Origin: Lysobacter capsici
GTDB lineage: Bacteria; Pseudomonadota; Gammaproteobacteria; Xanthomonadales; Xanthomonadaceae
Assembly: GCF_014779555.2 (NCBI RefSeq)
Contig: NZ_CP094357.1
Location: 1,612,001-1,676,000, forward strand
Direction: 5' to 3'
DNA: 64,000 nt
A model generated the notes under the pieces. The model saw only the letters and a list, made by a program, of their open reading frames with translations. It was not told the origin of the DNA and searched no databases. Position 1 is the stretch's first letter. Each line of letters opens with the position of its first letter. Below, one piece after another: positions 11,890-25,452 of this stretch. A program made the position numbers and the translations under genes.

Positions 11890-11903
11890 TTGACGCGGAT
11901 CAA
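11890..11903. promoter_or_regulatory. FNR-type box (TTGACGCGGATCAA)
   Basis: This matches the TTGAT-N4-ATCAA consensus with one mismatch in the left half. It is centred 61.5 bp upstream of the universal stress protein start (minus strand), which fits an activator at about -41.5 with a 20-nt leader. Confidence 0.65.
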
Positions 11904-11931
11904 TCAAGCCGATGTGGCGCCGTCGCGGCGA

Positions 11932-11945
11932 TTGATCCAGATCAA
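11932..11945. promoter_or_regulatory. FNR-type box (TTGATCCAGATCAA)
   Basis: A perfect TTGAT-N4-ATCAA site, centred 62.5 bp upstream of the GNAT start. Together with the box at 11890 it gives each divergent gene its own activator site. Confidence 0.8.
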
Positions 11946-12000
11946 GAGCGAACTGCGGCGAAGCCCTAGGCTGGACCTGAACCCATCGCAGGAGCCCGCC

Positions 12001-12546
12001 GTGAACATCGCATCGCCCGCCACCCGCGTTTCAGCGCCGCTGAGATGGACGCAAACCTTGCGCGACCGCAGCCACGTCGTGATCCGATCCATTTCGCCGC
12101 TGGACCGCTCGGCCGAACGCAGTTTCCTGGAAGGGCTGTCGGCGGAGACCCGTCGATTTCGCTTTCTCGGACAGATGCGTTGCCCCAGCGAGCAATTGCT
12201 CGATCAGCTCACCGATATCGATCCCGAACACGAAATCGCCTTCGTCGCGGTGATTCCGGAAGGAAGCGCCGAACGCATCGTCGGCGCCAGCCGGTACAGC
12301 GCGTCGGCGGACGGCGAGTCCTGCGAATGCGCGGTGATCGTCGCCGACGAATGGCAGAACAAGGGCCTCGGCAGCGCGTTGATGAAGCACTTGATCGAGA
12401 TCGCGAGGCAACGCGGCATCCGTCGAATGTATTCGGTGGATCTGGCCGAGAACCTGCAGATGCGCGACCTGGCGACTTACCTCGGTTTTCACATGCGCGC
12501 CGACCCCGACGATGCCAACCAGGTCATACACGAGCTGTCGCTGTAA
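12001..12546 (+). CDS. GNAT family N-acetyltransferase
   Basis: The 181-residue protein has the GNAT acetyl-CoA binding motif A ('DEWQNKGLGSALMKHLIEIA', about 117-136; QxxGxG/A pattern) and motif B near 'LAENLQMRDLATYLGF'. Similar single-domain acetyltransferases act on proteins, including acyl-CoA synthetases and stress regulators; the substrate here is unknown. I chose GTG 12001 because AGGAG lies at about 11990 and the FNR-type box sits at the expected distance, although the frame is open further upstream across the promoter. A strong terminator follows directly. Confidence 0.82.
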   Translation: MNIASPATRVSAPLRWTQTLRDRSHVVIRSISPLDRSAERSFLEGLSAETRRFRFLGQMRCPSEQLLDQLTDIDPEHEIAFVAVIPEGSAERIVGASRYSASADGESCECAVIVADEWQNKGLGSALMKHLIEIARQRGIRRMYSVDLAENLQMRDLATYLGFHMRADPDDANQVIHELSL

Positions 12547-12553
12547 ACACCGG

Positions 12554-12580
12554 CGCCGCGCCCAGCGCGGCGTTTTTTTT
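12554..12580 (+). terminator. Intrinsic terminator after GNAT gene
   Basis: An 8-bp GC stem (CGCCGCGC/GCGCGGCG) with a CCA loop is followed by eight T residues, a textbook Rho-independent terminator. It ends only 23 bp before the next start codon. Confidence 0.9.
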
Positions 12581-12602
12581 ACGAAGCTGGGTGGCGCGGC
12601 GG

Positions 12603-12974
12603 ATGAAACTCACGCATGCATTCGATCGATTTTCGAAACTGGCGGCCCGGTTTTCCGGCCGGCCGCTGGCGTTCACCGCGGCGGTGGCGATCATCGCGGC
12701 CTGGCTGGTCACCGGGCCGCTGTTCGCCTTCAGCGACACCTGGCAGCTGGTGATCAACACCGCGACCACGGTGATCACGTTCCTGATGGTGTTTCTGATC
12801 CAGAACACGCAAAGCCGCGATACCGAGGCGATCCAGATCAAGCTCGACGAGCTGATCCGCGTGACCGAGGCCGCCAGCAATTCGCTCATGGACCTGGAAG
12901 AACTCGACGAAGCCACGCTCGAAGCGTACCGGCGCAAATACGAACTGCTGGCGCGTCGGTCGCGCGAAGGCTGA
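12603..12974 (+). CDS. Low-affinity iron permease family small membrane protein
   Basis: The 123-residue protein has two membrane segments (about 21-41 and 47-66), the motif 'VITFLMVFLIQNTQSRDTEA' and a charged C-terminal helix ('KLDELIRVTEAASN'). This pattern is the low-affinity iron permease domain of bacteria; a direct iron transport role is not proven for these short forms. The ATG lies 23 bp after a strong terminator. It therefore needs read-through or a promoter inside the terminator region. Confidence 0.75.
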   Translation: MKLTHAFDRFSKLAARFSGRPLAFTAAVAIIAAWLVTGPLFAFSDTWQLVINTATTVITFLMVFLIQNTQSRDTEAIQIKLDELIRVTEAASNSLMDLEELDEATLEAYRRKYELLARRSREG

Positions 12975-13024
12975 GCCGCGAAGTGCGAGCCATCGCCAGG
13001 TCGCGGCGCGGGCCGGGATTGCGT

Positions 13025-14281
13025 TCAACCCGGCCAGGCGACGAGCACGAAGCAGGCCGCCATCAGCAGCGTTCCCGGGATCAGTCGCGAGGCGAAAGCT
13101 CGGCCGCCCCGGGCCGCGGCGACGAAGCACTTCATCAGCGAATTGGCGATGACCGCGCCCATCAGCCCCTGTTGAGCCAACGGCGCATCGAGCGGGTCGC
13201 GCGCGATCGATTGCGCGGCCGATGCGGCGGCGGCATGCACGTCGGCCAGCCCGGACAGCGCCAGCACCCACGGCAGGCTCGCGTCGCCGAGGCTGCTTCG
13301 CGCGATCGCCGAACCCAGCATGATCGCGCCGAGCAAGGCCACGAACCGCAACGCGGCCATCGGCTCGAACGGCCGTTGCGAGACCAGCTTGCGCATCGGA
13401 ATGGCCGTCGTGGCGGAGGCCGAGCGAGTGGACAGCCACGCCGCCGCCGCGACGGCCGCGCCCGCCGCGATCAAGGCCGGCGTGGCCCAGCGCAGCATCG
13501 CCGGCGACAGCGCGCCGATCACGACCGCCAGTTGCACGATCGTGGCGACATTGGACATCAGCCCGGCGCTCGCCGCGGCCGGCGCCAGGGCGGGATCGGC
13601 ACGCGCGCGATCGGCCATCGCGGCGATCGTGGCGGTGCTCGACACGAAACCGCCGGCCAGGCCCGCGATCGAAAGCCCCAGGCGGGCGCCGAAGATCCGA
13701 AGCGCGACATAACCCACCGAACCGATCGCCATGACCGCGACCACCAGCACCCACAGACGGTGCGGGTTGATCGATCGCCAGGGGTCGATGGTCCGGTCGG
13801 GCAGCAGCGGCAGCACCACGAAGGCCGCCGCGGTCAGCAACAGCAGATCGTGCAGTTCCTGCCGCGTCAGCACCCGCCGGCTGAATCGGTGCAGGCGCTG
13901 TTTGCTGGCCAGGACGATGGCGACCAGCACGCCGAGCGCTGCGGCGATGTCGGGTGAGCGCATCGACAATGCGCCCAGCAGCCAGGTGACCAGCAATGCG
14001 ATTTCCGTGCTCAGTCCTGGGTCGCGATCGCGCGTGCTCAGGTACCCGGCGGTGACCAGCGCGCTCAGGAACAATCCGGCCGTCAGCAGGCCGAACTCGC
14101 CAAGGCTGACGGCGACCGCGCCGGCCAGGCTACACAGCACGAAGCTGCGAATGCCCGCCGGTTCGTGCAATGGGCCGCGTCCCCTGGCGCGTTCGCGATC
14201 CAGACCCACCAGCAGGCCGATGCCCAGCGCCACGCTCAGGCCGGTGATCGGAGACGGCGGGGTGATCGAAAGCGGCATCAT
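13025..14281 (-). CDS. MgtC/SapB N-terminal plus DUF4010 membrane protein
   Basis: The 418-residue polytopic membrane protein starts with an MgtC/SapB-like segment ('ALGIGLLVGLDRERARG', about 18-34). A DUF4010 region with about ten further membrane segments follows ('GLAGGFVSSTATIAAMADRA'). The biochemical role is unknown; MgtC relatives are linked to Mg/ATP homeostasis. It ends 16 bp from the adhP stop region and is transcribed in the same direction, so it is probably in the adhP transcript and under the same FNR-type box. A second ATG one codon downstream is equally possible. Confidence 0.8.
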   Translation of the reverse strand: MMPLSITPPSPITGLSVALGIGLLVGLDRERARGRGPLHEPAGIRSFVLCSLAGAVAVSLGEFGLLTAGLFLSALVTAGYLSTRDRDPGLSTEIALLVTWLLGALSMRSPDIAAALGVLVAIVLASKQRLHRFSRRVLTRQELHDLLLLTAAAFVVLPLLPDRTIDPWRSINPHRLWVLVVAVMAIGSVGYVALRIFGARLGLSIAGLAGGFVSSTATIAAMADRARADPALAPAAASAGLMSNVATIVQLAVVIGALSPAMLRWATPALIAAGAAVAAAAWLSTRSASATTAIPMRKLVSQRPFEPMAALRFVALLGAIMLGSAIARSSLGDASLPWVLALSGLADVHAAAASAAQSIARDPLDAPLAQQGLMGAVIANSLMKCFVAAARGGRAFASRLIPGTLLMAACFVLVAWPG

Positions 14282-14296
14282 GGGGCGGCAACCCGC

Positions 14297-15334
14297 CTAA
14301 GCGACCAGGCTCATGTCGAGCACCGCGCGGCCTTCGATTCCGCCCACCCGCAAACGGTCGAGCACCGTGTTGACCTGGCTCAGCGGAAAGGGTTCGACCT
14401 GGGCCCGCACCTTGCCGTAGGCCGCCATCGCGACGGCTTCGGCCAAGTCCTGACGATTGCCGACGATCGACCCGCGCAAGGTGATGCGCTTGAGCACGAC
14501 ATCGAAGATCGGCGTGGCGAATTCGCCCGGCGGCAAACCGACCAGGCTGATCGTGCCTTTGCGGCGGACCATGCCCAGCGCCTGAGTGAACGCACTGGGC
14601 GACACGGCGGTGACCAGCACGCCTTGCGCGCCGCCACCGGTGGCGCGGCGAATGTCTTCCAGCGCGTTTGCATCGTTGGCGTTGACGACGATTTCCGCGC
14701 CCAGCGAACGCGCCAGCGCGAGCTTGCTTTCGCTGACGTCGATCGCCGCGACATGCAGGCCCATGGTCTTTGCGTACTGGATGGCCAGATGGCCCAGACC
14801 GCCGATACCGGAAATCGCGATCCACTCGCCGGGTCGCGCCTCGGTCTCGCGAATGCCCTTGTAGCTGGTGACGCCCGCGCACAGGATCGGCGCGAGGGCG
14901 ATGAAGTCGCAATTGTCCGGCAGGCGCGCGACATAGGCCGCGTTGGCGATGGCATAGTCGCTGAAGGTGCCGTTGACGCTATAGCCGCTGTTGCGCTGGC
15001 GTTCGCACAAGGTTTCCCAGCCGCTGATGCAATACTCGCAATGCCCGCACGCGTCGTGCAGCCAGGCGATTCCCACCGGATCGCCGCCGCGCAGATGTTT
15101 CACTCCCGCGCCGACCTCGGTGACGACGCCGGCGCCCTCGTGTCCGGGAATGAACGGAAGGCCGGGTTGGATCGGCCAATCCCCCTGCACCGCATGCAGA
15201 TCGGTATGGCAGACCCCGCTGGCGCGGATCTTGACCAGCACCTCGCCGGGGCCGGGACTGGGGATGGGCAGATGCTCGATCGACAGCGGTACCCCGAGGC
15301 GATGCGCGACCGCCGCTCGCATGGTGCCCTTCAT
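14297..15334 (-). CDS. adhP: Zinc-dependent alcohol dehydrogenase AdhP-like
   Basis: This 345-residue medium-chain dehydrogenase interconverts primary alcohols and aldehydes with NAD(H). Visible are the catalytic zinc ligand in 'GVCHTDLH' (C42) and 'GHEGAG', structural-zinc cysteines in 'DACGHCEYCISGWETLC', and the Rossmann motif 'GIGGLGHLAIQYAKTMG'. GGAG lies 6 nt before ATG 15334. An FNR-type box is centred 63.5 bp upstream, consistent with fermentative or low-oxygen use. The neighbour upstream is a divergent response regulator. Confidence 0.93.
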   Translation of the reverse strand: MKGTMRAAVAHRLGVPLSIEHLPIPSPGPGEVLVKIRASGVCHTDLHAVQGDWPIQPGLPFIPGHEGAGVVTEVGAGVKHLRGGDPVGIAWLHDACGHCEYCISGWETLCERQRNSGYSVNGTFSDYAIANAAYVARLPDNCDFIALAPILCAGVTSYKGIRETEARPGEWIAISGIGGLGHLAIQYAKTMGLHVAAIDVSESKLALARSLGAEIVVNANDANALEDIRRATGGGAQGVLVTAVSPSAFTQALGMVRRKGTISLVGLPPGEFATPIFDVVLKRITLRGSIVGNRQDLAEAVAMAAYGKVRAQVEPFPLSQVNTVLDRLRVGGIEGRAVLDMSLVA

Positions 15335-15390
15335 CGCATGCTCCAGGTAGTGAGTCGATCTGGACTCTAGGCCCGCGCGCGAACGACGCC

Positions 15391-15404
15391 TTGATTTGGA
15401 TCAA
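15391..15404. promoter_or_regulatory. FNR-type box (TTGATTTGGATCAA)
   Basis: A full TTGAT-N4-ATCAA site in the divergent adhP/response-regulator region. It is centred 63.5 bp from adhP and 80.5 bp from the regulator start, so adhP is the better-placed target. Confidence 0.8.
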
Positions 15405-15477
15405 TGGGGGCCGACGGTTGCGATGATCGGGGGATCGGACCATTCTTTCCGCCTACCCACGGAGTTATTCGATCGCC

Positions 15478-16224
15478 ATGTCACCGGGAGCGAAGGACAA
15501 GGCATCGTCGGCCGGGCACCTGCCTGGTCTGCTGATAATCGACGACGACCCCGATATCGTCGCGCTGTTGTCGCGTTACTTCGGCGCCAACGGTTATCGG
15601 GTGATCGGTGCCGCCAACGCGGCCCAGGCGCGGGCGCTGATCGTGTCGGAGACGGTCGAACTGGTGCTGCTGGACCTGGGCCTGCCGGACGAGGACGGTC
15701 TGTCGCTGCTGCGCCATCTGCAGATGAACTGGCGAGGGCCGGTGATCGTGGTCAGCGGGCGGGGCGAAGCGGTCGAGCGCGTCGTCGGCCTGGAGCTGGG
15801 CGCCGACGATTACGTGACCAAGCCCTTCGATCTGCGCGAGCTGCTGGCGCGAACCCGATCGGTATTGCGCCGCTCGGTGGTCAAGGCGGAGGCGCCGGTC
15901 GCGGGCGAGTGCCTGGTCTTCGAAGGATTCAGCCTGGACATGCCCGCGCGCCGCCTGACCGATGCGTCGGGCAATGAGGTGCCGCTGACCACCGGCGAGT
16001 TCGAATTGCTCAAGGCGCTGCTGCAGCGTCCGCGCCAGGTGCTCAGCCGCGATCAGCTGATGACCAGCGTGCATGGCCGCGACGCCGGTCCGTTCGATCG
16101 AACCATCGACGTCGGCATCGGCCGGCTCAGGCGAAAAATCGAACGCAATCCCAGCGAGCCGACGCTGATCAAGGCGGTGCGTGGCGCCGGCTACCTGCTG
16201 GCCGCCGAGGTGCGCAGGACATGA
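15478..16224 (+). CDS. OmpR-family response regulator
   Basis: The 248-residue protein has a receiver domain (about 18-130) with 'IIDDDPD', phosphoacceptor D66 in 'LLDLGLPDEDG' and the conserved K in 'YVTKPFDLREL'. A winged-helix DNA-binding domain follows (about 145-245, 'DRTIDVGIGRLRRKIE'). It overlaps the kinase gene by 4 bp, so the two form a cognate pair. OmpR-type proteins bind direct repeats spaced about 10 bp; three such GTAAC repeats lie upstream of the nearby Crp/Fnr gene, a candidate target. An FNR-type box lies 80.5 bp upstream of the start. Confidence 0.93.
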   Translation: MSPGAKDKASSAGHLPGLLIIDDDPDIVALLSRYFGANGYRVIGAANAAQARALIVSETVELVLLDLGLPDEDGLSLLRHLQMNWRGPVIVVSGRGEAVERVVGLELGADDYVTKPFDLRELLARTRSVLRRSVVKAEAPVAGECLVFEGFSLDMPARRLTDASGNEVPLTTGEFELLKALLQRPRQVLSRDQLMTSVHGRDAGPFDRTIDVGIGRLRRKIERNPSEPTLIKAVRGAGYLLAAEVRRT

Positions 16225-18263
16225 GCGAAGACGCGCTGTTGCACGGCCTGTTCGAAGCCGTTCCGGATGCGCTGGTCGTCGTCGACGGCAACGGACGCAT
16301 TGTTCAGGCCAACCGTCAGGCGGAACGACTGTTCGGTTATCCGCAAGGCGGCTTGAACGAGATCGCCGTCGAACAGCTTATTCCCGAGGACGCGCGCGAG
16401 CGGCATCACGCCCATCGCGCGGGCTATATGGCGCGGCCGCATGTGCGCCCGATGGGCGTCACCGGCCAGAGTTTGATCGGGCAGCGACTGGATGGAACGA
16501 AATTTCCGGTCGAGATCGCCCTGAGTCCGATCGACAGCGATCAGGGGCCGCGTTATCTGGCGTCGGTTCGCGACATCTCCGAATCGCAGCGCGCGCGCCA
16601 GGCGCTGGTACGCGCGCGCTACGACGCCTTGGCGGCGAGAATCGGACAACTCGCCCTGGAGGCCCAGGACGAGTCCGCCGTGGTCGACCATGTGCCCGCA
16701 TTGTTGGCCGCGGCGTTGGACGCGCAAATCGTTGCCGTCGTGTTCGTGTCCACCGATCGGCAGACGGTCGAGACCCGAGCCTCGATCGGGTTGGATGGTA
16801 CGGACGCCGGCGACGGGTCGCTCGCCCGATTCGACGAATCAATGTTGCTGGAGTTGATTGCCAAGGGCGAAACCCTGGTGGTGGACGATCTGCAAGGCAC
16901 CGCCGCTGCGGCGAGCGGCTTTCCGATAAGCGCCGCGCGCGAGGGCAGCGGCGTGCTGCTGCCGCTGTCGGACCGCGGCTGGGCGATGGGGGCCTTGCTG
17001 GTGATGTCGGAAAAATCGCGTCACTTCGATCATGACGCCTTGCACCTGCTGCAATCGGTGGCCAATCTGATCGCCGCGTTCGTGCAGCGACGGCGTACCG
17101 AGGAACAGCTGGCGCATTCCCAGCGTCTGGACGCGGTGGGCCAGCTCACCGGCGGCATCGCCCACGATTTCAACAATCTGCTGACCGTGATATCCGGCAG
17201 CCTGCAGTTGCTGGAAATGGAGTGCGAGGACAAGCCCGACGCCAGCGAGATCATCGCCAGCGCATTGCGCTCGGTGGGGCGCGGCGCGGAACTCACCGGC
17301 AAGCTGCTGGCGTTCGCGCGTCGGCAGCGACTCATGCCGCACGCCGTCGATACCTCGGCATTGCTTCGCGACCTCGAACTGATGCTCAAGCGCACCCTCG
17401 GCGAAAGCATCCGGCTGCAGGTCCATTGCGACGACGATCTGCCCGCGGCCTATGTCGATCCCACCCAGTTGGATGCGGCGCTGGTGAATCTCGCCCTGAA
17501 CGCTCGCGATGCGATGCCGCGCGGCGGGGAAATCATCATCGAGGCACGCGCGCATCACAATGGCGATCAGGCCATGCCGGGCGAACTCGCCATCGGCCGC
17601 TACGTCAGGATCAGCGTGACCGATACCGGCCGCGGCATGGGGCCGGACACCTTGGCCAGAGCGATGGAGCCGTTCTTTACCACCAAGGAAGCCGGGCGCG
17701 GCAGCGGCCTGGGCTTGAGCATGGTCTACGGCTTCGCCAAGCAGAGCGGAGGGCATCTGCGGATCGAAAGCGCGCTTGGATACGGAACGCGCGTGGACTT
17801 GTTCGTGCCGTCGGCTCAGGCGAACGCGACCGCCGCGGCGCCGGCCAACGCCGTACGCATCCAAGGCAAGGGCGAGACGGTGCTGGTGGTCGAGGACGAC
17901 GAGGCCGTGCGCAATATCGCCGTCGCGTTCCTGCGTTCGTTCGGCTATCGGGTGCTTGCGGTCGGCTCGGCCGAAGCGGCGCTGAGCCGACTGGCGAGCG
18001 ACGAGTCCATCCGCATCCTCTTCAGCGATGTGATGCTCGGCGAGGGCATGAACGGCAAGGAGCTGGCATTGGCGGCGCGCGCGCTCCGGCCCGATCTGCC
18101 GGTGCTGCTGACATCGGGTTACGAGACCCAGAGCGTCGGCGAAAAGGATGCGCCGGCCGACAGTTTCGAACTGCTGCGCAAGCCGTATCGGCGCGAACAG
18201 CTCATGGCGGCGGTCGGTCGTGTACTCGATCCGCGCGAACAGGCACCGCCCGCGGCTCAGTGA
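16221..18263 (+). CDS. PAS-GAF hybrid histidine kinase with C-terminal receiver
   Basis: This 680-residue soluble sensor has no membrane segment. Domains in order: PAS (about 8-125, '[20 protein letters not shown]'), GAF (about 145-285), HisKA with H315 in '[12 protein letters not shown]', HATPase_c ('[12 protein letters not shown]', '[20 protein letters not shown]') and a receiver (about 555-675) with D603 in '[13 protein letters not shown]'. It should sense a cytoplasmic signal such as redox state or a small ligand and pass phosphate to the upstream regulator. The attached receiver may tune the kinase. The 3' end overlaps the convergent Crp/Fnr gene by 7 bp. Confidence 0.92.
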
Positions 18264-18979
18264 CAGGCGGTGCTTTCGCGCAGCACGGTCTGCAGTCCGG
18301 CGCGGTTCTGGATCCGGATCTCCCGGCCGGCCACCGCGATCAGGCCCCGTGCCTGCAGGCGCGACAGCACCCGGGTCACCGTCTCCAGCGTCAGCGACAG
18401 GAAGTTTCCGAGTTCGGCGCGGGTCATCCGCAGTTGCAGATGGCTCGGGCTGAAGCCCAGCCGTTCGAATCGCGACGCCAGATCGAACAGAAACGTAACC
18501 ACGCGCTGATCGGCGCCGAGGGTGCCCAGCGCCAGCATCCAGCCCCAGTCGCGGCGGATCTCGCCCGCGAGCAAGGCGGTAATGCGTTCCTGGAACTGGG
18601 GCATTTCGTCGCGCAATTGCGCGTACGGCAGTTCCCACAGTTCGCCGGTGTCCAGCGCGATCGCATCGCAGGTGTAGGTCGGCATGTCCAGCGAGTCCAG
18701 TCCGAGCAGATCGCCGCGCATGCGAAAGCCGGTGATCTTTTCGCGGCCGTCTTCGCTGATGAGGGCGGTCTTGAAGAATCCCGCGTGCACCAGATACAGC
18801 GCGTGGCGAGGCTGCCCGGCGCGGAACACATGCTGCTTGGCATGGACCCGCCGGCGTTGCAGCGGCCAGTTCTGCAACAGTTGCTCGAGACTGTGGGTTT
18901 CCCGCGCGCGTCCCGCCGAGGATGCGCCGGAATAGGTTTCGAACGACGGCTCTGGGCGGGAGGCGGTTTCGAGCAACAT
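18257..18979 (-). CDS. Crp/Fnr-family regulator without Fe-S cysteines
   Basis: The 240-residue protein has a cyclic-nucleotide-like beta-barrel (about 45-150), a dimerisation helix and a C-terminal winged helix ('MTRAELGNFLSLTLETVTRV', about 180-199). The recognition helix reads E-T-V-T-R, close to the E-T-x-S-R of FNR/Anr/FixK, which bind TTGAT-N4-ATCAA. The N-terminal cysteine cluster of FNR is absent, and the position equivalent to the fourth ligand is Trp in 'GELWELP'. It therefore cannot carry the FNR [4Fe-4S] cluster and is more like FixK or Dnr. It is the obvious candidate reader of the seven nearby boxes. Confidence 0.88.
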   Translation of the reverse strand: MLLETASRPEPSFETYSGASSAGRARETHSLEQLLQNWPLQRRRVHAKQHVFRAGQPRHALYLVHAGFFKTALISEDGREKITGFRMRGDLLGLDSLDMPTYTCDAIALDTGELWELPYAQLRDEMPQFQERITALLAGEIRRDWGWMLALGTLGADQRVVTFLFDLASRFERLGFSPSHLQLRMTRAELGNFLSLTLETVTRVLSRLQARGLIAVAGREIRIQNRAGLQTVLRESTACH

Positions 18980-19046
18980 GGCGGTGATCCGACGGCTGGG
19001 TTGGGATGAGCCTAGAGCGCTCGGGCGCCGGAATGATTCCAGCGCG

Positions 19047-19071
19047 GTAACCAGCGGTAACAGTTTGTAAC
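19047..19071. promoter_or_regulatory. Three GTAAC direct repeats at exact 10-bp spacing
   Basis: GTAAC occurs at 19047, 19057 and 19067; on the minus strand it reads GTTAC-N5-GTTAC-N5-GTTAC. The array lies 68-92 bp upstream of the Crp/Fnr start. One-turn direct repeats are the usual site type for OmpR-family winged-helix regulators. The adjacent two-component regulator is a candidate binder (inference). Confidence 0.5.
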
Positions 19072-19122
19072 AAGCGCACGGAAGCGGTCGCCGGCTGACG
19101 AGACGCGCGCGGCCATCGAAGC

Positions 19123-19136
19123 TTGATCCGGATCAA
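19123..19136. promoter_or_regulatory. FNR-type box, perfect palindrome (TTGATCCGGATCAA)
   Basis: A fully symmetrical TTGAT-N4-ATCAA site. It is centred 73.5 bp upstream of the RNR-like gene and 150 bp from the divergent Crp/Fnr gene, so it probably serves the former. Confidence 0.82.
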
Positions 19137-19202
19137 GGCCCGATCGGCAGCGCAGGTCACAGTGGCGGGGACGCAGCGCGGCGATGGCCGCTGGAAAAGG
19201 CT

Positions 19203-20093
19203 TTGACCTCCCCGACGCGATTCACGGACCCGCATGCGGTCGATCTTTGGGACAGCCAGTTCCGCTGGCGCAGCGGCCATCGGCTGTGCGACCGGACGAT
19301 CGATGCGACATGGCAACGCGTCGCCACGGCCCTGGCGGATCGCGAAGGCGAAGAGTGCGCGTACTGGCGCAGCCGCTACGCGTTCGCATTCGGTCAGTGG
19401 CAGCTGTTGCCCGATCCGAGGTTGCTGCGTTTCGCCGGAACCGACATGCCGGTTCCGGCGTTGCGCGAGCCGATCGCCGCCGTCAACGCCGCAGCGTTCG
19501 TCACCGATTCGCATACGCGACGCGCCCGCTTCGACCATCAGCGCTTCGGCGCGGCCGCGGCCGTGGCCGTGCGGATGCTCGACGATGCCGCGATCGCCTT
19601 CGGACCCGACGACGATCCGTCGATGCGTTTTGGAATCGGGATGATCGGCCTGGGCGATGCCCTGGCCTCGCTGGGACTGGCTTACGACTCTCCGCAAGCG
19701 ATCCGCGCGGCGCAGGCCATCGCCCGGAGCCTGGCGCTGGGCTGTCTGCACGGTTCGCTGAAGATGGCCCAAGAACGCGGCGATCGGTGCGGCCAGGGCG
19801 GTCAGGGCGGTCAGGGCCTGGCGGAGCTTTGGAGAAACCGCGCGCTCCCGGCCGAACTGGCCGAGGCGGTCGCACGCAATCATCGGCACGAAGGCTTGAC
19901 GCGCATCGATGGGTTTTCCGAACTCGCGCGTCTCGCCAACGGGGCCAGCGATGGGTTCGACCCGTCGAAGGATGCACTGCACGATTCGCTCGGGGCGGCG
20001 TCGGTCGACAGGCAGGCCGCGCAACGGGCGATCCGCGGCGCGGTCGCGCCCTGGATCGACGCGCAGCCGCAAACCTCGCCGCTCGAGGCCTGA
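19203..20093 (+). CDS. Ribonucleotide-reductase-like protein lacking the catalytic core
   Basis: The 296-residue protein resembles class II ribonucleotide reductase at both ends. N-terminal 'TIDATWQRVATALADREG' and 'LLPDPRLLRFAGT' match the RNR N-terminal domain. 'ARFDHQRFGAAAAVAVRMLD' and 'GIGMIGLGDALASLGLAYDS' match the C-terminal part of the RNR barrel. The central several hundred residues, with the radical and redox cysteines and the 'NPCGE' motif, are missing, yet the frame is intact. It cannot be an active reductase; it may be a regulator or scaffold (inference). The start is probably TTG 19203 beside GGAAAAGG. The FNR-type box at 19123 suggests low-oxygen expression. A short 'GQGGQGGQG' repeat is present. 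Confidence 0.7.
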   Translation: MTSPTRFTDPHAVDLWDSQFRWRSGHRLCDRTIDATWQRVATALADREGEECAYWRSRYAFAFGQWQLLPDPRLLRFAGTDMPVPALREPIAAVNAAAFVTDSHTRRARFDHQRFGAAAAVAVRMLDDAAIAFGPDDDPSMRFGIGMIGLGDALASLGLAYDSPQAIRAAQAIARSLALGCLHGSLKMAQERGDRCGQGGQGGQGLAELWRNRALPAELAEAVARNHRHEGLTRIDGFSELARLANGASDGFDPSKDALHDSLGAASVDRQAAQRAIRGAVAPWIDAQPQTSPLEA

Positions 20094-20117
20094 TCGCGGC
20101 GCAGCCGGTGCGCAGCG

Positions 20118-20372
20118 CTAGACGTCGCCAGCGACGCGGCGACGCAAGGCCGACCACCAGCGGTGAACGCGCGCGATCGCGCGGGTCCATCCGGATGGCG
20201 CGGTCGCCGGCGGTAGCGCCGCCGACAAGCGATGCAATGTCGCGTCGGCACGATCGGCTTGCGGATCGCGGCCGCGCAACGTGATCATGACATCGTCTTC
20301 GATCCAGCGCAGCTGGCGCCGGAGATCTTCTTCAACGCGGCGGGAATCGTCCGGGCCGTCAGGCATTGCCAT
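20118..20372 (-). CDS. Small hypothetical protein
   Basis: An 84-residue open frame starting 'MAMPDGPDDSRRVEEDLRRQ' and rich in Arg, Asp and Trp. I do not recognise a family. It lies between the RNR-like gene (convergent) and the second universal stress protein gene, on the same strand and 53 bp downstream of the latter, so it could be the second gene of that transcript. ATG 20399 would add nine residues. There is no signal peptide or membrane segment. Its reality rests only on position and the lack of a better frame. Confidence 0.4.
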   Translation of the reverse strand: MAMPDGPDDSRRVEEDLRRQLRWIEDDVMITLRGRDPQADRADATLHRLSAALPPATAPSGWTRAIARVHRWWSALRRRVAGDV

Positions 20373-20424
20373 GGTGTGCTTCCACGAATGAGGATGCATC
20401 GACAGGGGCGCGCAGCCGTCGATG

Positions 20425-21261
20425 TCAATGTCCGAACAACATGGGAAGGTCGGTGGCGATCAGCAGTTCCCGCGTGACCCCGCCCAGCGCCCACTCGCGC
20501 AGACGCGAGTGGCCGTAGCCGCCCGCGATCAGAACGTCCGCGCGCATTTCGCGGGTGTATTGCAGGATCGCGGTCGCCACGGTCTGACCGAGCGTCGGGC
20601 GGCTGACGAGATACGCTTCCACGCCATGCCGCGCCAGGCACTTCACCATGCGCCGTCCGGACGGTTCGACATCCGGCATGTCGTCACCATGGACGATCAG
20701 CACGTCCACCCGCTCCGCGGCCTTTAAGAAGGGCAATGCATCGTGCACGGCGCGGGTGCTTTCGCGCGTCGGTTGCCAGGCGATGGCGATGCGCTTCATC
20801 GGGGTGGTCGCCACGCAGCGCGGTGGAATCACCAGCAACGGACGCCCCGATTCGAGCAACAGGGCTACGAAGTAGTCGTGCGGCACGATGGCTTCGACCG
20901 TATCGCCGACCGATCCGGCCACGACGACCAAGTCGGCGTCGAAGGCCTCGCGCGCCGCCAATCTCGGCGACTCGGTGTATAGGGCCTCCACCAGCCGTGC
21001 CTCCGACGAGATGGGCTCGCCGGCGAGTTGTTGCTTGAGTTTTTCCAGGTTCTCCCGGCCGCGCTCGCGAAGGCTGTCGTGGATGCCGGCCGAGATGGAG
21101 TCGGGGATCAAACCCCAGGGATGGGCGAGCGGCATGGGCAGGTCGACCATCTCCAGCACCGACAGATGCGCGGCATGGAGCCGGGCCAGGGCCATCGCGA
21201 CGTTCAGGGCGCCGACGTCGCCTTCGGTGCCGGTCATTGGAATCATCAGATTCTTGTACAT
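20425..21261 (-). CDS. Tandem-domain universal stress protein
   Basis: A 278-residue double Usp protein starting 'MYKNLMIPMTGTEGD'. The second domain has 'VLIAGGYGHSRLREWALGG', where G-x-x-G is preserved but the final G-S/T is changed to G-G. It is paralogous to the protein at 11011-11835. ATG 21261 has GGAG upstream and begins the fold; the open frame further upstream includes the promoter and is rejected. An FNR-type box is centred 71.5 bp upstream. The BON-cyd operon is divergent. Confidence 0.88.
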   Translation of the reverse strand: MYKNLMIPMTGTEGDVGALNVAMALARLHAAHLSVLEMVDLPMPLAHPWGLIPDSISAGIHDSLRERGRENLEKLKQQLAGEPISSEARLVEALYTESPRLAAREAFDADLVVVAGSVGDTVEAIVPHDYFVALLLESGRPLLVIPPRCVATTPMKRIAIAWQPTRESTRAVHDALPFLKAAERVDVLIVHGDDMPDVEPSGRRMVKCLARHGVEAYLVSRPTLGQTVATAILQYTREMRADVLIAGGYGHSRLREWALGGVTRELLIATDLPMLFGH

Positions 21262-21325
21262 GCGGGCTCTCCACGGGCCGGGGTTGGCCGACATCTCAAG
21301 GTCCGTCCGCCGGTGGCGGCGCGTA

Positions 21326-21339
21326 TTGATCTGAGTCAA
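21326..21339. promoter_or_regulatory. FNR-type box (TTGATCTGAGTCAA)
   Basis: One mismatch to TTGAT-N4-ATCAA in the right half (GTCAA). It is centred 71.5 bp upstream of the minus-strand universal stress protein gene. Confidence 0.7.
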
Positions 21340-21393
21340 GCCGGGGCGTTCAAGGTGAGCCGCGGCTGGATCGCCATGCCGCGGTGCGGGTGG

Positions 21394-21407
21394 TTGATCT
21401 GGATCAA
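21394..21407. promoter_or_regulatory. FNR-type box (TTGATCTGGATCAA)
   Basis: A perfect consensus site centred 62.5 bp upstream of the BON-domain gene. It probably drives the whole BON-cydPABX-ybgE operon. Confidence 0.82.
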
Positions 21408-21462
21408 GTCGTCCCGCGGCGGCCGCTGGCGTAATGAGGCCGGGTTTTCACCGGAGCCGGGC

Positions 21463-22113
21463 ATGAACAGCGAACGTTTGCGCAAGTACGTGGTGGAGGA
21501 ATTGGCGTTCGACCCGCGGGTCGATGCTTCGGGCATCGGCGTGAGCGTGGACGAGCGCATCGTCAAGCTCACCGGGCACGTCCACAGCCTCGCCGACAAG
21601 ATCGCGGTGGCGCAGGCGGTGGAGCGGGTGAAGGGCGTGCGTGGCGTGGTGCTCGATGTCGAGGTCCGTTGCCCGCCCGACGCGCATGTGTCCGACGAGG
21701 TTCTGGTCAAGCGCGCCACCGACGTGCTGGCCTGGGACACTTCGCTGCCGAAAGGATCGGTGAAAGTCACCGTCGACCATGGCTGCCTGACCTTGACCGG
21801 CTCGGTCGACTGGCAATTCCAGCGCAGCGAGATCGAGAACGATCTGCGCTGCCTGGCCGGTGTGATCGACATCGACAACCAGATCGCGATTCGCGCGATT
21901 TCGTGCAAGCAGGACGTCAAGCGTTCGATCAAGGACGCGATGCACCGTCGCGCCGACGTGCAGGCCTCGAATATCCGCGTCGACGTGGACGAGGGCGGGC
22001 GGGTGACCCTTAAAGGCAAGGTCGACGACTGGCAGGCGCGAAACGCGGTCGAGGACGCCGCCTGGCTGATCGCCGGCGTCAAGGATGTCGACAACCGGGT
22101 CCGCATCCGGTGA
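21463..22113 (+). CDS. Triple BON-domain protein
   Basis: The 216-residue protein consists of three BON domains (about 3-70, 77-145 and 147-216), each with a V-x-L-x-G core ('VKLTGHVHS', 'LTLTGSVDW', 'VTLKGKVDD'). BON proteins such as OsmY are often periplasmic, but no signal peptide is visible here, so it is probably cytoplasmic. GGAG precedes ATG 21463. It overlaps cydP by 4 bp and is the first gene of the cytochrome bd operon, which ties it to low-oxygen growth. Its biochemical function is unknown; phospholipid binding is known for some BON proteins. Confidence 0.87.
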   Translation: MNSERLRKYVVEELAFDPRVDASGIGVSVDERIVKLTGHVHSLADKIAVAQAVERVKGVRGVVLDVEVRCPPDAHVSDEVLVKRATDVLAWDTSLPKGSVKVTVDHGCLTLTGSVDWQFQRSEIENDLRCLAGVIDIDNQIAIRAISCKQDVKRSIKDAMHRRADVQASNIRVDVDEGGRVTLKGKVDDWQARNAVEDAAWLIAGVKDVDNRVRIR

Positions 22114-22316
22114 GCACGCCCGCCGCGCCGCCACGTCGCGCGCGCAAGCGCGATACGACGGCGCGCCACGGCGGCCGGCTCAAGCGACGAGTCGCCATGG
22201 CGATCGCGGCGAAGCTGGTCTTGTTGACCTTCCTGTACCTGATGTTCTTCTCGCCGTCGCACCGGCCGCGCATCGACGATGCCGCGGTGGACCGGCATCT
22301 GATTCCCACAAGGTGA
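22110..22316 (+). CDS. cydP: Putative small cytochrome oxidase subunit CydP
   Basis: A 68-residue protein with a very basic N-terminus ('RRARKRDTTARHGGRLKRR') and one membrane segment ('MAIAAKLVLLTFLYLMFF', about 30-47). It lies 5 bp before cydA. This size, topology and position match the CydP putative small subunit found ahead of cydA in Xanthomonadales and relatives. It overlaps the BON gene by 4 bp. A role in bd oxidase assembly or stability is inferred. Confidence 0.8.
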   Translation: MSTPAAPPRRARKRDTTARHGGRLKRRVAMAIAAKLVLLTFLYLMFFSPSHRPRIDDAAVDRHLIPTR

Positions 22317-22321
22317 ACGCC

Positions 22322-23905
22322 ATGCCGGATCTCCATGTCGTCGATCTGTCCCGATTGCAGTTCGCGCTGACCGCGCTGTACCACTTCCTGTTCGTGCCGT
22401 TGACCATCGGCCTGGCCCTGATCATGGCGATCATGGAAAGCGTCTACGTGATGACCAACCGGGTGATCTGGAAGCAGATGACCCGGTTCTGGGGTGTGCT
22501 GTTCGGCATCAACTTCGCCATGGGGGTGGCCACCGGCATCACCATGGAGTTCCAGTTCGGAACCAACTGGGCGTATTACTCGCATTACGTCGGCGATATC
22601 TTCGGCGCGCCGCTGGCCATCGAAGGGCTGATGGCGTTCTTTCTGGAAAGCACGTTCGTGGGCTTGTTCTTCTTCGGCTGGGGCCGGTTGACCAAGCTGC
22701 AGCATCTGATCGTGACCTGGCTCACCGCGCTGGGCGCGAATCTGTCCGCGCTGTGGATATTGATCGCCAACGGCTGGATGCAGAACCCGGTCGGCGCGCA
22801 GTTCAACTTCCAGACCATGCGCATGGAAGTCACCGACTTCGCCGCGGTGGTGTTCAATCCGGTCGCTCAAGCGAAATTCGTGCATACCGTCAGTGCCGGC
22901 TATGTCACCGGCGCGATGTTCGTGCTGTCGATCAGCGCCTGGTATCTGCTGCGCGGGCGCAACATCGAGATCGCGCGCCGTTCCATCGTGGTGGCCGCGA
23001 GCTTCGGCCTGGCGTCGGCCTTGTCGGTCGCCGTGTTGGGCGACGAGAGCGGCTACACCGCCTCGGAAAACCAGAAGATGAAGGTCGCCGCGATCGAGGC
23101 CGAGTGGCGCACCCACCCGGCGCCGGCGTCGTTCACCCTGGTCGGATGGCCGGACATGCAACGGCGCGAAACCGCGCATGCGGTGCATATCCCCTGGGCA
23201 CTGGGCCTGATCGCCACGCGCTCGCTCGACAAGGAAGTGCCTGGCATTCACGACCTGGTCGAGGTCAATCGCCAGCGCATCCGCCGCGGCATCGGTGCGT
23301 ACGCGGCGCTGCGCGAATTGCGCGCCGACCGCGACGATCCGGACAAGGCCGCCGCATTCCTGGCCCTGCGCGAGGATCTCGGTTTCGGCCTGTTGACCCT
23401 GCGCTATGTCACCGATCCCGCGCTCGCCGACGAAACCGTCATCGATCGCGCGGCCTGGAGCACGGTGCCGAACGTACCGGTGCTGTTCTGGTCGTTCCGG
23501 ATCATGGTGGGGCTGGGCGTGTTCTTCATCGTGCTGTTCGGCTGGGCGTTCTATCTGGCCACGCGCGGACGATTGGAACGTCCGCTGTTCCTGCGTGTCG
23601 CCTTGTGGAGTCTGCCGTTGCCGTGGGTCGCGGCCGAACTGGGCTGGATCGTCGCCGAGTACGGCCGCCAGCCGTGGGCGATCGACGGCGTGTTGCCGAC
23701 CTTCCTGGGCGTGTCCTCGACCAGTTCCACGCAAGTGATCGCGAGCCTGGTGGGCTTCGTCGTGCTCTACACCGGACTGGCGGTGGTCGACGTGATGCTG
23801 ATGCTGCGCGCGATCCGTTCCGGGCCGGATCGACTCAAGTTCTGGCCGGCGTCGCGCAGCGGCCACGCCGTCGTCCCAACCCAACTTGCGAGGACCGACC
23901 GATGA
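22322..23905 (+). CDS. cydA: Cytochrome bd ubiquinol oxidase subunit I
   Basis: CydA holds hemes b558, b595 and d and the quinol site of this high-oxygen-affinity terminal oxidase. The 527 residues show 'LTALYHFLFVPLT' with heme ligand H21, 'MGVATGITMEFQFGTNWAYY', 'FVHTVSAGYVTGA', the heme-ligand Met region 'FWSFRIMVGLG' and the signature 'AEYGRQPWAIDGVLPT'. The length fits the long Q-loop form, as in E. coli (522). An upstream in-frame extension exists, but ATG 22322 after the cydP stop is the family start. It overlaps cydB by 4 bp. Confidence 0.97.
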   Translation: MPDLHVVDLSRLQFALTALYHFLFVPLTIGLALIMAIMESVYVMTNRVIWKQMTRFWGVLFGINFAMGVATGITMEFQFGTNWAYYSHYVGDIFGAPLAIEGLMAFFLESTFVGLFFFGWGRLTKLQHLIVTWLTALGANLSALWILIANGWMQNPVGAQFNFQTMRMEVTDFAAVVFNPVAQAKFVHTVSAGYVTGAMFVLSISAWYLLRGRNIEIARRSIVVAASFGLASALSVAVLGDESGYTASENQKMKVAAIEAEWRTHPAPASFTLVGWPDMQRRETAHAVHIPWALGLIATRSLDKEVPGIHDLVEVNRQRIRRGIGAYAALRELRADRDDPDKAAAFLALREDLGFGLLTLRYVTDPALADETVIDRAAWSTVPNVPVLFWSFRIMVGLGVFFIVLFGWAFYLATRGRLERPLFLRVALWSLPLPWVAAELGWIVAEYGRQPWAIDGVLPTFLGVSSTSSTQVIASLVGFVVLYTGLAVVDVMLMLRAIRSGPDRLKFWPASRSGHAVVPTQLARTDR

Positions 23906-25035
23906 TCGACTATTCGCTGCTACGCATGATCTGGTGGGTGCTGCTCGGGGTGCTGCTGATCGGCTTCGCCGTGACCGACGGCTACGACCTGGGCCTGGGC
24001 GCGATCCTGCGGTTGATCGGCCGCGACGATGTCGAACGGCGCATGGCGCTGGAGTCGATCGAGCCCAACTGGGAAGGCAACCAAGTCTGGTTCATCCTCG
24101 GCGGGGGCGCCGTGTTCGCTGCTTGGCCGCTGCTGTACGCGGCATCGTTTTCCTCGTTCTACTTCGCCATGTTGCTGCTGTTGGTGGCATTGATCCTGCG
24201 GCCGGTCGGCTTCGCCTTCCGCAACCGATTGCCGCATGCGCGCTGGCGCGGCGCGTGGGACTGGGCGCTGACGATCGCGGGCGCGGTGCCGTCGCTGGTG
24301 TTCGGCGTGGCTTTCGGCAATCTGCTGCTCGGCGTGCCGTTCCACTTCAGCGACGAAATGCTGCCGATCTACGACGGCAGTTTCATCGGCCTGTTCCGGC
24401 CGTTCGCCCTGCTCGCCGGCGTGGTCAGTCTGGCGATGCTGGTGATGCACGGCGCGTGCTTCGCCGCCATGCGCGTCGAGGATCCGGTCGGACAACGGGC
24501 GCGGCGTATCGCCCGCATCGCCGCGATCGTGGCCTCGATCGGTTTCGTGGTGGCGGGCCTCTGGCTTCGCTATCTTCCTGCCCCGGCGATCGTCGGCGGT
24601 CTGCACGCGGATGCGCCGTCCGACCCGCTGGTCAAGCATGTGACGCTGATCGACGGAGGATGGTTCGCCAACTACGCGCTCAATCCCTGGATGATCGCGG
24701 TGCCGGTGCTGACGGTGCTGCTGTTGATCGCGGTGGTGCTGTGCCGCGTGCGTTGGCTGGCCTTTCTGGCGAGCGGCGCAGCGGTGGCGGGGATCATCCT
24801 GACCGCCGGTCTGGCGATGTTTCCGTTCCTGATGCCGTCCTCAACGAATCCGGGCCACGGCCTGACGGTCTGGGACGCGTCTTCGAGCCAGCGCACGCTG
24901 GGGATCATGCTCGTCGCCGCGGCGATCTTCCTGCCGCTGATCCTGGCCTACACCAGTTGGGCGTTCCGGGTCATGCGCGGCACGGTGACGCGCGCTCATG
25001 TGCAGTCGCAGGACGAACTCGGAGGTGGCTACTGA
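23902..25035 (+). CDS. cydB: Cytochrome bd ubiquinol oxidase subunit II
   Basis: The 377-residue polytopic protein has 'AVTDGYDLGLGAI' (about 23-35) and 'EPNWEGNQVWFILGGG' (about 54-69), both diagnostic of CydB. Typical length is 379. It partners CydA in the inner membrane. Start and stop both overlap the neighbouring genes (ATGATC over the cydA TGA, TGATG into cydX), showing tight translational coupling. Confidence 0.97.
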   Translation: MIDYSLLRMIWWVLLGVLLIGFAVTDGYDLGLGAILRLIGRDDVERRMALESIEPNWEGNQVWFILGGGAVFAAWPLLYAASFSSFYFAMLLLLVALILRPVGFAFRNRLPHARWRGAWDWALTIAGAVPSLVFGVAFGNLLLGVPFHFSDEMLPIYDGSFIGLFRPFALLAGVVSLAMLVMHGACFAAMRVEDPVGQRARRIARIAAIVASIGFVVAGLWLRYLPAPAIVGGLHADAPSDPLVKHVTLIDGGWFANYALNPWMIAVPVLTVLLLIAVVLCRVRWLAFLASGAAVAGIILTAGLAMFPFLMPSSTNPGHGLTVWDASSSQRTLGIMLVAAAIFLPLILAYTSWAFRVMRGTVTRAHVQSQDELGGGY

Positions 25036-25160
25036 TGTGGTATTTCGCCTGGATACTGGGTTTGTCCCTGGCCTGCAGCTTCGGCGTGCTGAACGCCATG
25101 TGGTACGAATTGCGCAGCGACGAGGAGCGCGATCGTCGCGAAGTGCTGGAGGACGACTGA
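25035..25160 (+). CDS. cydX: Cytochrome bd small subunit CydX
   Basis: A 41-residue single-span protein beginning 'MWYFAWILGLSLACSFGVLN', with 'AMWYE' and an acidic tail. CydX is required for bd oxidase stability and heme retention. Its ATG overlaps the cydB stop by one base, and its stop overlaps the next start. The conserved N-terminal W-Y-F-x-W-x-L-G pattern makes the call secure despite the small size. Confidence 0.93.
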   Translation: MWYFAWILGLSLACSFGVLNAMWYELRSDEERDRREVLEDD

Positions 25161-25414
25161 TGGCGCGGGTCGTGTCCCTGCTGCTGGCCTGCGGCCTGAC
25201 GCTGGGATTGCTGTTCCTGCCGGCGATGCGCGGCGGCGGCATGACCGCCGCCGGGCACGGCTTGCTCAGTCCGCTGTTGCTGTCGATCTGCGCCGGATTC
25301 GTCCATGGCGTCGGTTACCGGCCGCTGCGGCCGTGGCTGCGCGCGCTTGTGCATCCGTTGCTGCTTTGGCCCGCGATGCTCGGACTGGCCATCTTGTGGG
25401 CACGCAGCTTCTGA
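25160..25414 (+). CDS. ybgE: cyd operon YbgE-family membrane protein
   Basis: An 84-residue protein with three hydrophobic stretches and 'FVHGVGYRP' near the middle, a motif seen in YbgE proteins encoded after cydABX. The function is not well defined. It overlaps cydX by one base and ends the operon. A universal stress protein gene with its own FNR-type box follows. Confidence 0.75.
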   Translation: MARVVSLLLACGLTLGLLFLPAMRGGGMTAAGHGLLSPLLLSICAGFVHGVGYRPLRPWLRALVHPLLLWPAMLGLAILWARSF

Positions 25415-25438
25415 GAAGCTCCGGGGCACCGCGCAGGA

Positions 25439-25452
25439 TTGATCTGGATCAA
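25439..25452. promoter_or_regulatory. FNR-type box (TTGATCTGGATCAA)
   Basis: A perfect consensus site in the ybgE-usp gap, centred 75.5 bp upstream of the single-domain universal stress protein gene. Confidence 0.82.

Follow-up and report, generated by a model that had tools for sequence, protein, structure and literature searches.

The gene at 19203–20093 of the window (the whole 64-kb stretch of Lysobacter capsici DNA that was analysed) encodes what we call a shell of a ribonucleotide reductase (RNR); there is hardly any doubt that the protein is homologous to RNR and that its catalytic residues have been lost. We propose that the shell is probably a bacterial RNR pseudoenzyme, that is, a non-catalytic protein that would act by binding within a low-oxygen response. 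The proposal draws on homology to RNR, a deletion common to the family, the grouping of the shells into a single clade, purifying selection, a predicted fold, the architecture of the promoter, and linkage to a regulator gene. The shell is a conserved homologue that is predicted to fold and is devoid of catalytic residues, as a pseudoenzyme is, suggesting that the RNR shape has been reused for a purpose other than the making of DNA precursors.

The shell lacks the catalytic residues of class II RNR

The shell gene and its parts are as follows (positions are those of the window).

19203..20093, + strand: RNR shell gene; 296-aa open reading frame with a TTG start, PF02867 and NrdJ_Z matches, 40-member alignment, one clade at 100/100
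19203..19454, + strand: retained N-terminal helical domain of NrdJ, shell residues 1–84, rich in invariant columns (alignment with intact NrdJ, invariant columns)
19452..19457, + strand: junction, at which 233 consecutive residues of the genome's own NrdJ (first redox Cys, N-P-C-G-E, finger loop) are without a counterpart (alignment)
19455..20090, + strand: retained second RNR half-barrel, shell residues 85–296, with the substrate loop P-T-G-S-I-S altered (PF02867 match to residues 92–193, column counts)

The original prediction of a real gene with an intact frame held up: the open reading frame encodes 296 amino acids and contains all four of the motifs then quoted. A 1077-aa reverse-strand frame that overlaps the shell gene in the six-frame list was taken for an artefact of GC-rich DNA. 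Shell residues 92–193 match the RNR barrel domain of Pfam (PF02867) at 44.4 bits, against a cut-off of 23.9, while the match to the N-terminal RNR domain (PF00317) is weak (14 bits, below the cut-off of 28). The best NCBIfam match is to the class II RNR NrdJ_Z, at 57.3 bits and far below its cut-off of 399.95; the profile of the PRK06948 kind (NF005401) gave 41.9 bits against a curated cut-off of 906.

In the alignment with the complete NrdJ of the same genome, the longest unmatched run spans 233 NrdJ residues and follows shell residue 84. The skipped residues are 155–387, counted from the start of the open frame, and beyond the gap the shell is colinear with the second half of the NrdJ barrel to near its C-terminal end. 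Both the first redox Cys and the thiyl-radical motif N-P-C-G-E fall within the deletion; no N-x-C-x-E occurs in any of the 40 aligned family members. The NrdJ columns C162, N379, C381 and E383 (same numbering) are empty in 40/40 shells, and the column of the second redox Cys, C392, just past the gap, holds a Cys in none of the 40, i.e. all five catalytic or redox residues checked are missing throughout. The absence of the catalytic core, as first claimed, was thereby borne out. The accompanying picture of two ends kept and a middle lost needs partial revision: colinearity and gap agree with it, but the motifs 'IGMIGLGDAL' and 'LANGASDGFDP', which had been thought to mark the far end, lie in the retained second half-barrel, and it is not the entire middle that is missing but the first half-barrel with the finger loop.

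The alignment comprises 40 of 45 possible rows (the window and 44 further loci); L048, L053, L070, L074 and L077 were left out owing to contig-end cuts, a broken frame or an unsure start. Since the deletion is common to all 40 members, a sequencing or frame artefact was ruled out. A recent deletion in a single strain, which the original prediction had named as a way to be wrong, was likewise rejected, as the relatives share the gap and form one clade.

Of the 124 columns with 95% conservation among 34 NrdJ proteins, 62 are empty in all 40 shells. The substrate loop, which reads A-P-[TA]-G-[ST]-I-S in most NrdJ, has its P-T-G-S-I-S residues altered in most shells, with Pro in the Gly column of 33/40 and Ala in the final Ser column of 39/40. 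Because half of these conserved columns are empty and most members have a changed substrate loop, the earlier suggestion that the protein binds nucleotides or B12 appears disfavoured, at least at the known sites. Scaffold residues are kept. Across the 40 shells, 19 columns are invariant, and 61 are conserved in at least 85% of them, of which 31 are common to NrdJ, 15 are partly so and 15 are shell-only, the last including F20, W22, R23, W66, D71 and R192. The sole Cys column in most shells is residue 181 (31/40, missing in 9/40). We also noted that the shells of L. antibioticus (L039) and of three further Lysobacter loci (L012, L013 and L014) carry a Cys-rich C-terminal tail, D-C-E-D-R-L-C-S-x-C, reminiscent of the class I RNR redox tail; no such tail is present in the window protein.

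Elsewhere, the same genome encodes a complete NrdJ and a complete class I NrdA-type protein, hence the dNTPs of the cell presumably do not depend on the shell gene.

The retained parts are predicted to fold as a partial RNR barrel

AlphaFold2 modelled the window protein with a pLDDT of 91.2 and a pTM of 0.91, and a 359-aa form from Rhodanobacter with a pLDDT of 90.2 and a pTM of 0.91. In Foldseek searches, the best 50 of 221 matches (window protein) and the best 50 of 230 (Rhodanobacter form) were all RNRs, so the predicted models match the RNR fold, in line with the original prediction. TM-scores over the query were 0.43–0.53 for the window protein and 0.52–0.72 for the Rhodanobacter form, and cover a partial barrel only. 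For the Rhodanobacter model, two E. coli NrdA entries superposed across the long gap, with TM-scores over the query of 0.72 and 0.69 and rmsd values of 5.4 and 10.4. These two superpositions weakly suggest that the N-terminal domain and the second half-barrel sit roughly as in a native RNR, with the lost wedge between them. The matches listed for the window-protein model included no such superposition, and many of the longer alignments had an rmsd of 15–18.

The shells form one clade under purifying selection

The shell was found in 14 of 60 genomes of close relatives, including 11 of 20 from the same genus (the genome of the window counted). L. enzymogenes ATCC 29487 is among the carriers of the gene (L035). 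When one genome per GTDB species was scanned for a sequence pattern, 44 loci came up, all from genera or families of the Lysobacterales or from unspecified Proteobacteria MAGs. In an order-wide draw of 299 genomes, at least 12 have a shell and four more a full-length NrdJ-type match, the count being a lower bound from up to seven scored candidates per genome. A phylum-wide draw of 398 genomes showed, among the matches listed, shells in two genomes, both of the same order; this is again a lower bound, from up to five candidates per genome, and weak copies could be missed. A search of plasmids gave no shell match. Two shell copies are present in a Pseudoxanthomonas wuyuanensis genome (G629, which holds L037), and two lie at the same places in genome G888; the loci noted here are L037 and L143.

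In both trees, the shells make up one side of a branch supported at 100/100. The best tree places them beside NrdJ proteins of ~600 aa (the PRK06948 kind) with weak support (85/72), and the resident NrdJ form a separate clade, apart from the shells. An origin of the shell as a duplicate of the resident NrdJ is therefore unsupported by the best tree, yet an AU test did not reject the grouping of shells with resident NrdJ (p = 0.25), nor that of shells with the alpha type (p = 0.25). A single clade of shells and three full-length NrdJ from the same order was rejected (p = 0.018). Owing to the long shell branch, the trees do not fix the exact parent NrdJ lineage. The first tree had 18 of its 74 rows dropped for thinning, and the second kept 22 of the 40 shells; NrdJ loci left out were L085, L087, L092 and L093, whose sequences were in a wrong frame, as well as such loci as L079, L080, L082, L083 and L090. 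As the shells found form one clade, a single loss before the sampled Lysobacterales lineages parted would be the simplest account.

All ten pairs tested are under purifying selection, with dN/dS values of 0.17–0.34. Values of ~0.25 together with long branches indicate that the shell is less tightly constrained than core enzymes usually are. One copy is broken: in a Dokdonella MAG (L077:9914-10429), the shell frame ends after ~143 codons, and the response regulator, kinase and Crp-like genes adjoin it as elsewhere. A separate NrdJ match was found in 36 of 39 shell-bearing genomes (35 over the cut-off and one split over two contigs), and the three genomes without one are MAGs. Shell-less relatives also show full-length NrdJ matches, hence the co-occurrence of shell and NrdJ cannot discriminate between explanations.

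An FNR/FixK-type box precedes most shell genes

Two promoter elements lie upstream of the shell gene.

19123..19136, + strand: FNR/FixK-type box TTGATCCGGATCAA, an exact TTGA-N6-TCAA
19158..19163, + strand: -10-like hexamer CACAGT, 21 nt past the box

The FNR-type box that the original prediction had placed before the gene is thus present, and is common in the family: an exact TTGA-N6-TCAA lies within 150 nt upstream of the shell in 35 of 43 loci, against ~1.3 expected (0.03 per locus, from the box density over the loci and the window). The count covers 43 of the 45 loci, L048 and L063 being without upstream DNA. Among the eight loci without an exact box, five carry one that differs by a single mismatch; the other three (L045, L050 and L052) have none. 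In 24 of the 35 box-bearing loci, a hexamer NA[CT]A[CGA]T starts 21–23 nt past the box, inside the nine-base window of offsets 18–26; other windows of nine bases hold 0 or 1 such hexamers, and the mean after shuffling was 0.6. From this spacing, transcription would start near 19170, with the box centred near -41. A box near -41 is the arrangement of class II activation by Crp/Fnr proteins.

At L045, L050 and L052, the shell lies downstream of a usp gene on the same strand, and the box stands in front of usp; Pfam identified the Usp in L050 and L052, and in L045 its identification comes from 34% identity to one of the Usp proteins of the window. Genes for a phasin (L050), an Hsp20 (L045) and a phosphoketolase (L052) are found near these pairs, as are further usp genes.

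As a control, 28 hand-picked frames of intact NrdJ were inspected, and in none does a box lie in the 350 nt that precede the frame (L096 and L098 with only ~290–310 nt of upstream DNA); at L078 and L086, boxes lie 448 and 395 nt before the frame. Full-length NrdJ of ~600 aa from the same order, with an intact N-P-C-G-E, have a near box in two of three cases (L140 and L142, not L141). The box is therefore not exclusive to the shell, and the near boxes at L140 and L142 imply that, in this order, control by the box may predate the deletion or may have been acquired more than once. A further NrdJ-like frame of 555 aa (L145) reads N-V-C-G-E instead of N-P-C-G-E.

Within the window as a whole, there are nine TTGA-N6-TCAA boxes against 0.29 expected. 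Seven of the nine lie within a 13.6-kb stretch (11890–25452) that carries, among its genes, three usp, cytochrome bd subunit I, a BON protein, an MgtC/DUF4010 protein and an alcohol dehydrogenase, and that looks like a low-oxygen gene island.

The shell gene is linked to a Crp-family regulator and a hybrid kinase

Three regulatory genes lie on the other side of the promoter.

18257..18979, - strand: Fnr/FixK-like Crp-family regulator, divergent to the shell (profile matches, neighbour counts)
16221..18263, + strand: PAS-GAF hybrid histidine kinase, whose PAS region resembles FixL under the family cut-off
15478..16224, + strand: OmpR-type response regulator (profile matches, neighbour counts)

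The best profile matches of the Crp-like regulator are Fnr (157 bits, cut-off 228) and FixK (76 bits, cut-off 300). Fnr carries an N-terminal Cys cluster, which this regulator lacks; a Cys at residue 104 is present in 32 of 39 aligned members. The PAS region of the kinase matches FixL at 123 bits, against a cut-off of 850.

The Crp-like gene is adjacent and divergent to the shell in 38 of 44 loci, and the order response regulator, hybrid kinase, Crp-like gene, shell is complete in 33 of 44. The six loci without an adjacent Crp-like gene are L048 and L063 (contig end), L045, L050 and L052 (the usp pairs), and L060 (kinase match only). In the 60 genomes of close relatives, every one of the 14 shell loci has the regulator next to the shell. 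Within Lysobacter, it is present in 11/11 shell-bearing genomes (three of them searched for it, and all checked beside the shell) and in 0/9 shell-less genomes, none of which gave a regulator match at 1e-30. In two genomes of other genera, the regulator is present (67% identity in G021, 62% in G031) and no shell was seen.

Proposed mechanism and alternative explanations

We suggest that a class II RNR ancestor would have lost the first half of its barrel together with the finger loop, and that the N-terminal domain and the second half-barrel would have been kept as a stable protein. In the cell, the PAS kinase would sense oxygen and signal through the response regulator to the Fnr/FixK-like activator without the Cys cluster, which in turn would activate the shell promoter from a box at the position typical of class II Crp/Fnr activation. 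The shell would then work without catalysis, by binding, within the low-oxygen stress response and alongside universal stress proteins. Counted against this reading are the patchiness of the family (at least 12 of 299 genomes of the order), the broken frame of L077, the loose constraint with its long branches, the 8 of 43 loci without an exact box, the boxes before some intact NrdJ, and the regulator with no shell seen in G021 and G031.

Two partners seem about equally likely, namely the oxygen-sensing module, in view of adjacency and co-inheritance, and a true RNR, in view of ancestry. The idea that this half-barrel RNR pseudoenzyme is the divergent, co-inherited partner of the FixK-like regulator and serves in signalling, either as feedback on the oxygen response or as a coupling to DNA-precursor supply, can be held only tentatively. 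Taken by itself, a feedback role, in which the shell would tune the response through contact with the kinase, response regulator or Crp-like protein, much as FixT does, albeit as an unrelated protein, strikes us as somewhat unlikely. The divergent position in 38/44 loci and the joint presence and absence of shell and regulator in Lysobacter speak for such a role, as does Caulobacter FixT, a member of the FixLJ regulon that inhibits FixL according to the part of the report consulted (PMC7078487); however, no such regulator gene was found in the 13–21 kb surrounding the shells behind usp at L045, L050 and L052, two genomes hold the regulator with no shell seen, and the RNR fold is not that of a receiver. 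Alternatively, the shell might act on a real RNR (NrdJ or class I NrdA), whose activity it would lower or stabilise at falling oxygen, thereby adjusting the dNTP supply of arrested cells, a role that we doubt to a similar degree. RNR ancestry and the separate NrdJ match in 36/39 shell-bearing genomes are consistent with it, but the latter says little given the full-length NrdJ of shell-less relatives, and descent from the resident NrdJ, though not rejected, finds no support in the best tree. Moreover, the parts that form the dimer interface with the specificity site lie inside the shell deletion, which weakens the case for this partner, and any contact with a true RNR would need another surface. 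That the dimer interface of NrdJ goes with the specificity site is taken from part of a published account (PMC3267527).

The remaining explanations fare less well. A new catalytic activity, or the binding of a nucleotide, cobalamin or another small ligand in the opened half-barrel, is improbable in our estimation: the shell-only residues F20, W22, R23, W66, D71 and R192, in a model of high confidence, leave room for a pocket, but the known radical and redox residues are missing, the substrate loop is altered in most members, and C181, the only frequent cysteine, is itself missing in nine of 40. It is very improbable that the shell is a decaying remnant without function, as the loss of the catalytic core, the patchy distribution and the one broken copy might have indicated, in the face of purifying selection in 10/10 pairs, a conserved promoter, 19 invariant columns across 40 members and a confidently predicted fold. 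A pseudoenzyme acting by binding in the low-oxygen response thus stays our favoured reading.

RNR is a highly constrained enzyme. A stable natural family that kept the N-terminal domain and the second half-barrel and lost the catalytic half would be proof that, in bacteria, an RNR scaffold can persist after the chemistry has gone, and would provide RNR structural biology with a minimal folded half-enzyme. If the shell is active in the low-oxygen response, an oxygen-sensing cascade would be tied to a former DNA-precursor enzyme; if the signalling interpretation is true, the shell would represent a bacterial regulator derived from RNR and dedicated to a non-catalytic role, and our literature search returned no description of one. 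Annotation pipelines should be wary, since the shell scores over the Pfam RNR cut-off and may be miscounted as an RNR gene.

Comparison with known systems

The original prediction knew of no described function for such a protein, and our literature search of titles and abstracts agrees, in that it returned no description of a half-barrel RNR protein of this kind; the part of an RNR family survey that was consulted (PMC9669993) likewise contained no inactive or half-barrel RNR. The closest enzyme is class II NrdJ (NCBIfam TIGR02504; PDB 1xje, a B12-dependent RNR), which is colinear with the shell over the N-terminal domain and the second half-barrel and has the scaffold residues R39, G79, N95, D127, G149, Y161, R228, P254 and D286 in common with it. 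Unlike NrdJ, the shell is without the 233 residues, the catalytic Cys and N-P-C-G-E, and its substrate loop is changed. Small NrdJ of the PRK06948 kind (NF005401, 'ribonucleotide reductase-like protein') are also colinear with the shell over both retained parts, but those aligned here keep N-P-C-[GAS]-E, which the shell does not. The name 'ribonucleotide reductase-like protein' is also borne by BCAM0310, which the part of the report consulted assigns to the low-oxygen-activated lxa locus of Burkholderia (PMC4981469).

On the side of regulation, the shell resembles FixT, which the consulted part of its report describes as the product of an oxygen-regulated gene in a FixL-FixK-type module and as an Fe-S-binding receiver-domain protein (PMC7078487), whereas the shell is an RNR homologue. 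Neither the receiver fold nor the four-Cys motif of FixT is found in the shell.

The UL45 and M45 proteins of betaherpesviruses are viral, and are homologues of cellular R1, hence of class I. We know of no half-barrel deletion or oxygen control in either. They nevertheless offer the nearest precedent for a reuse of RNR: in the parts of the reports consulted, these R1 homologues are large-subunit relatives without activity that have been reused in signalling by protein contact (PMC5469499, PMC11772975), and the shell is likewise an RNR homologue without catalytic residues.
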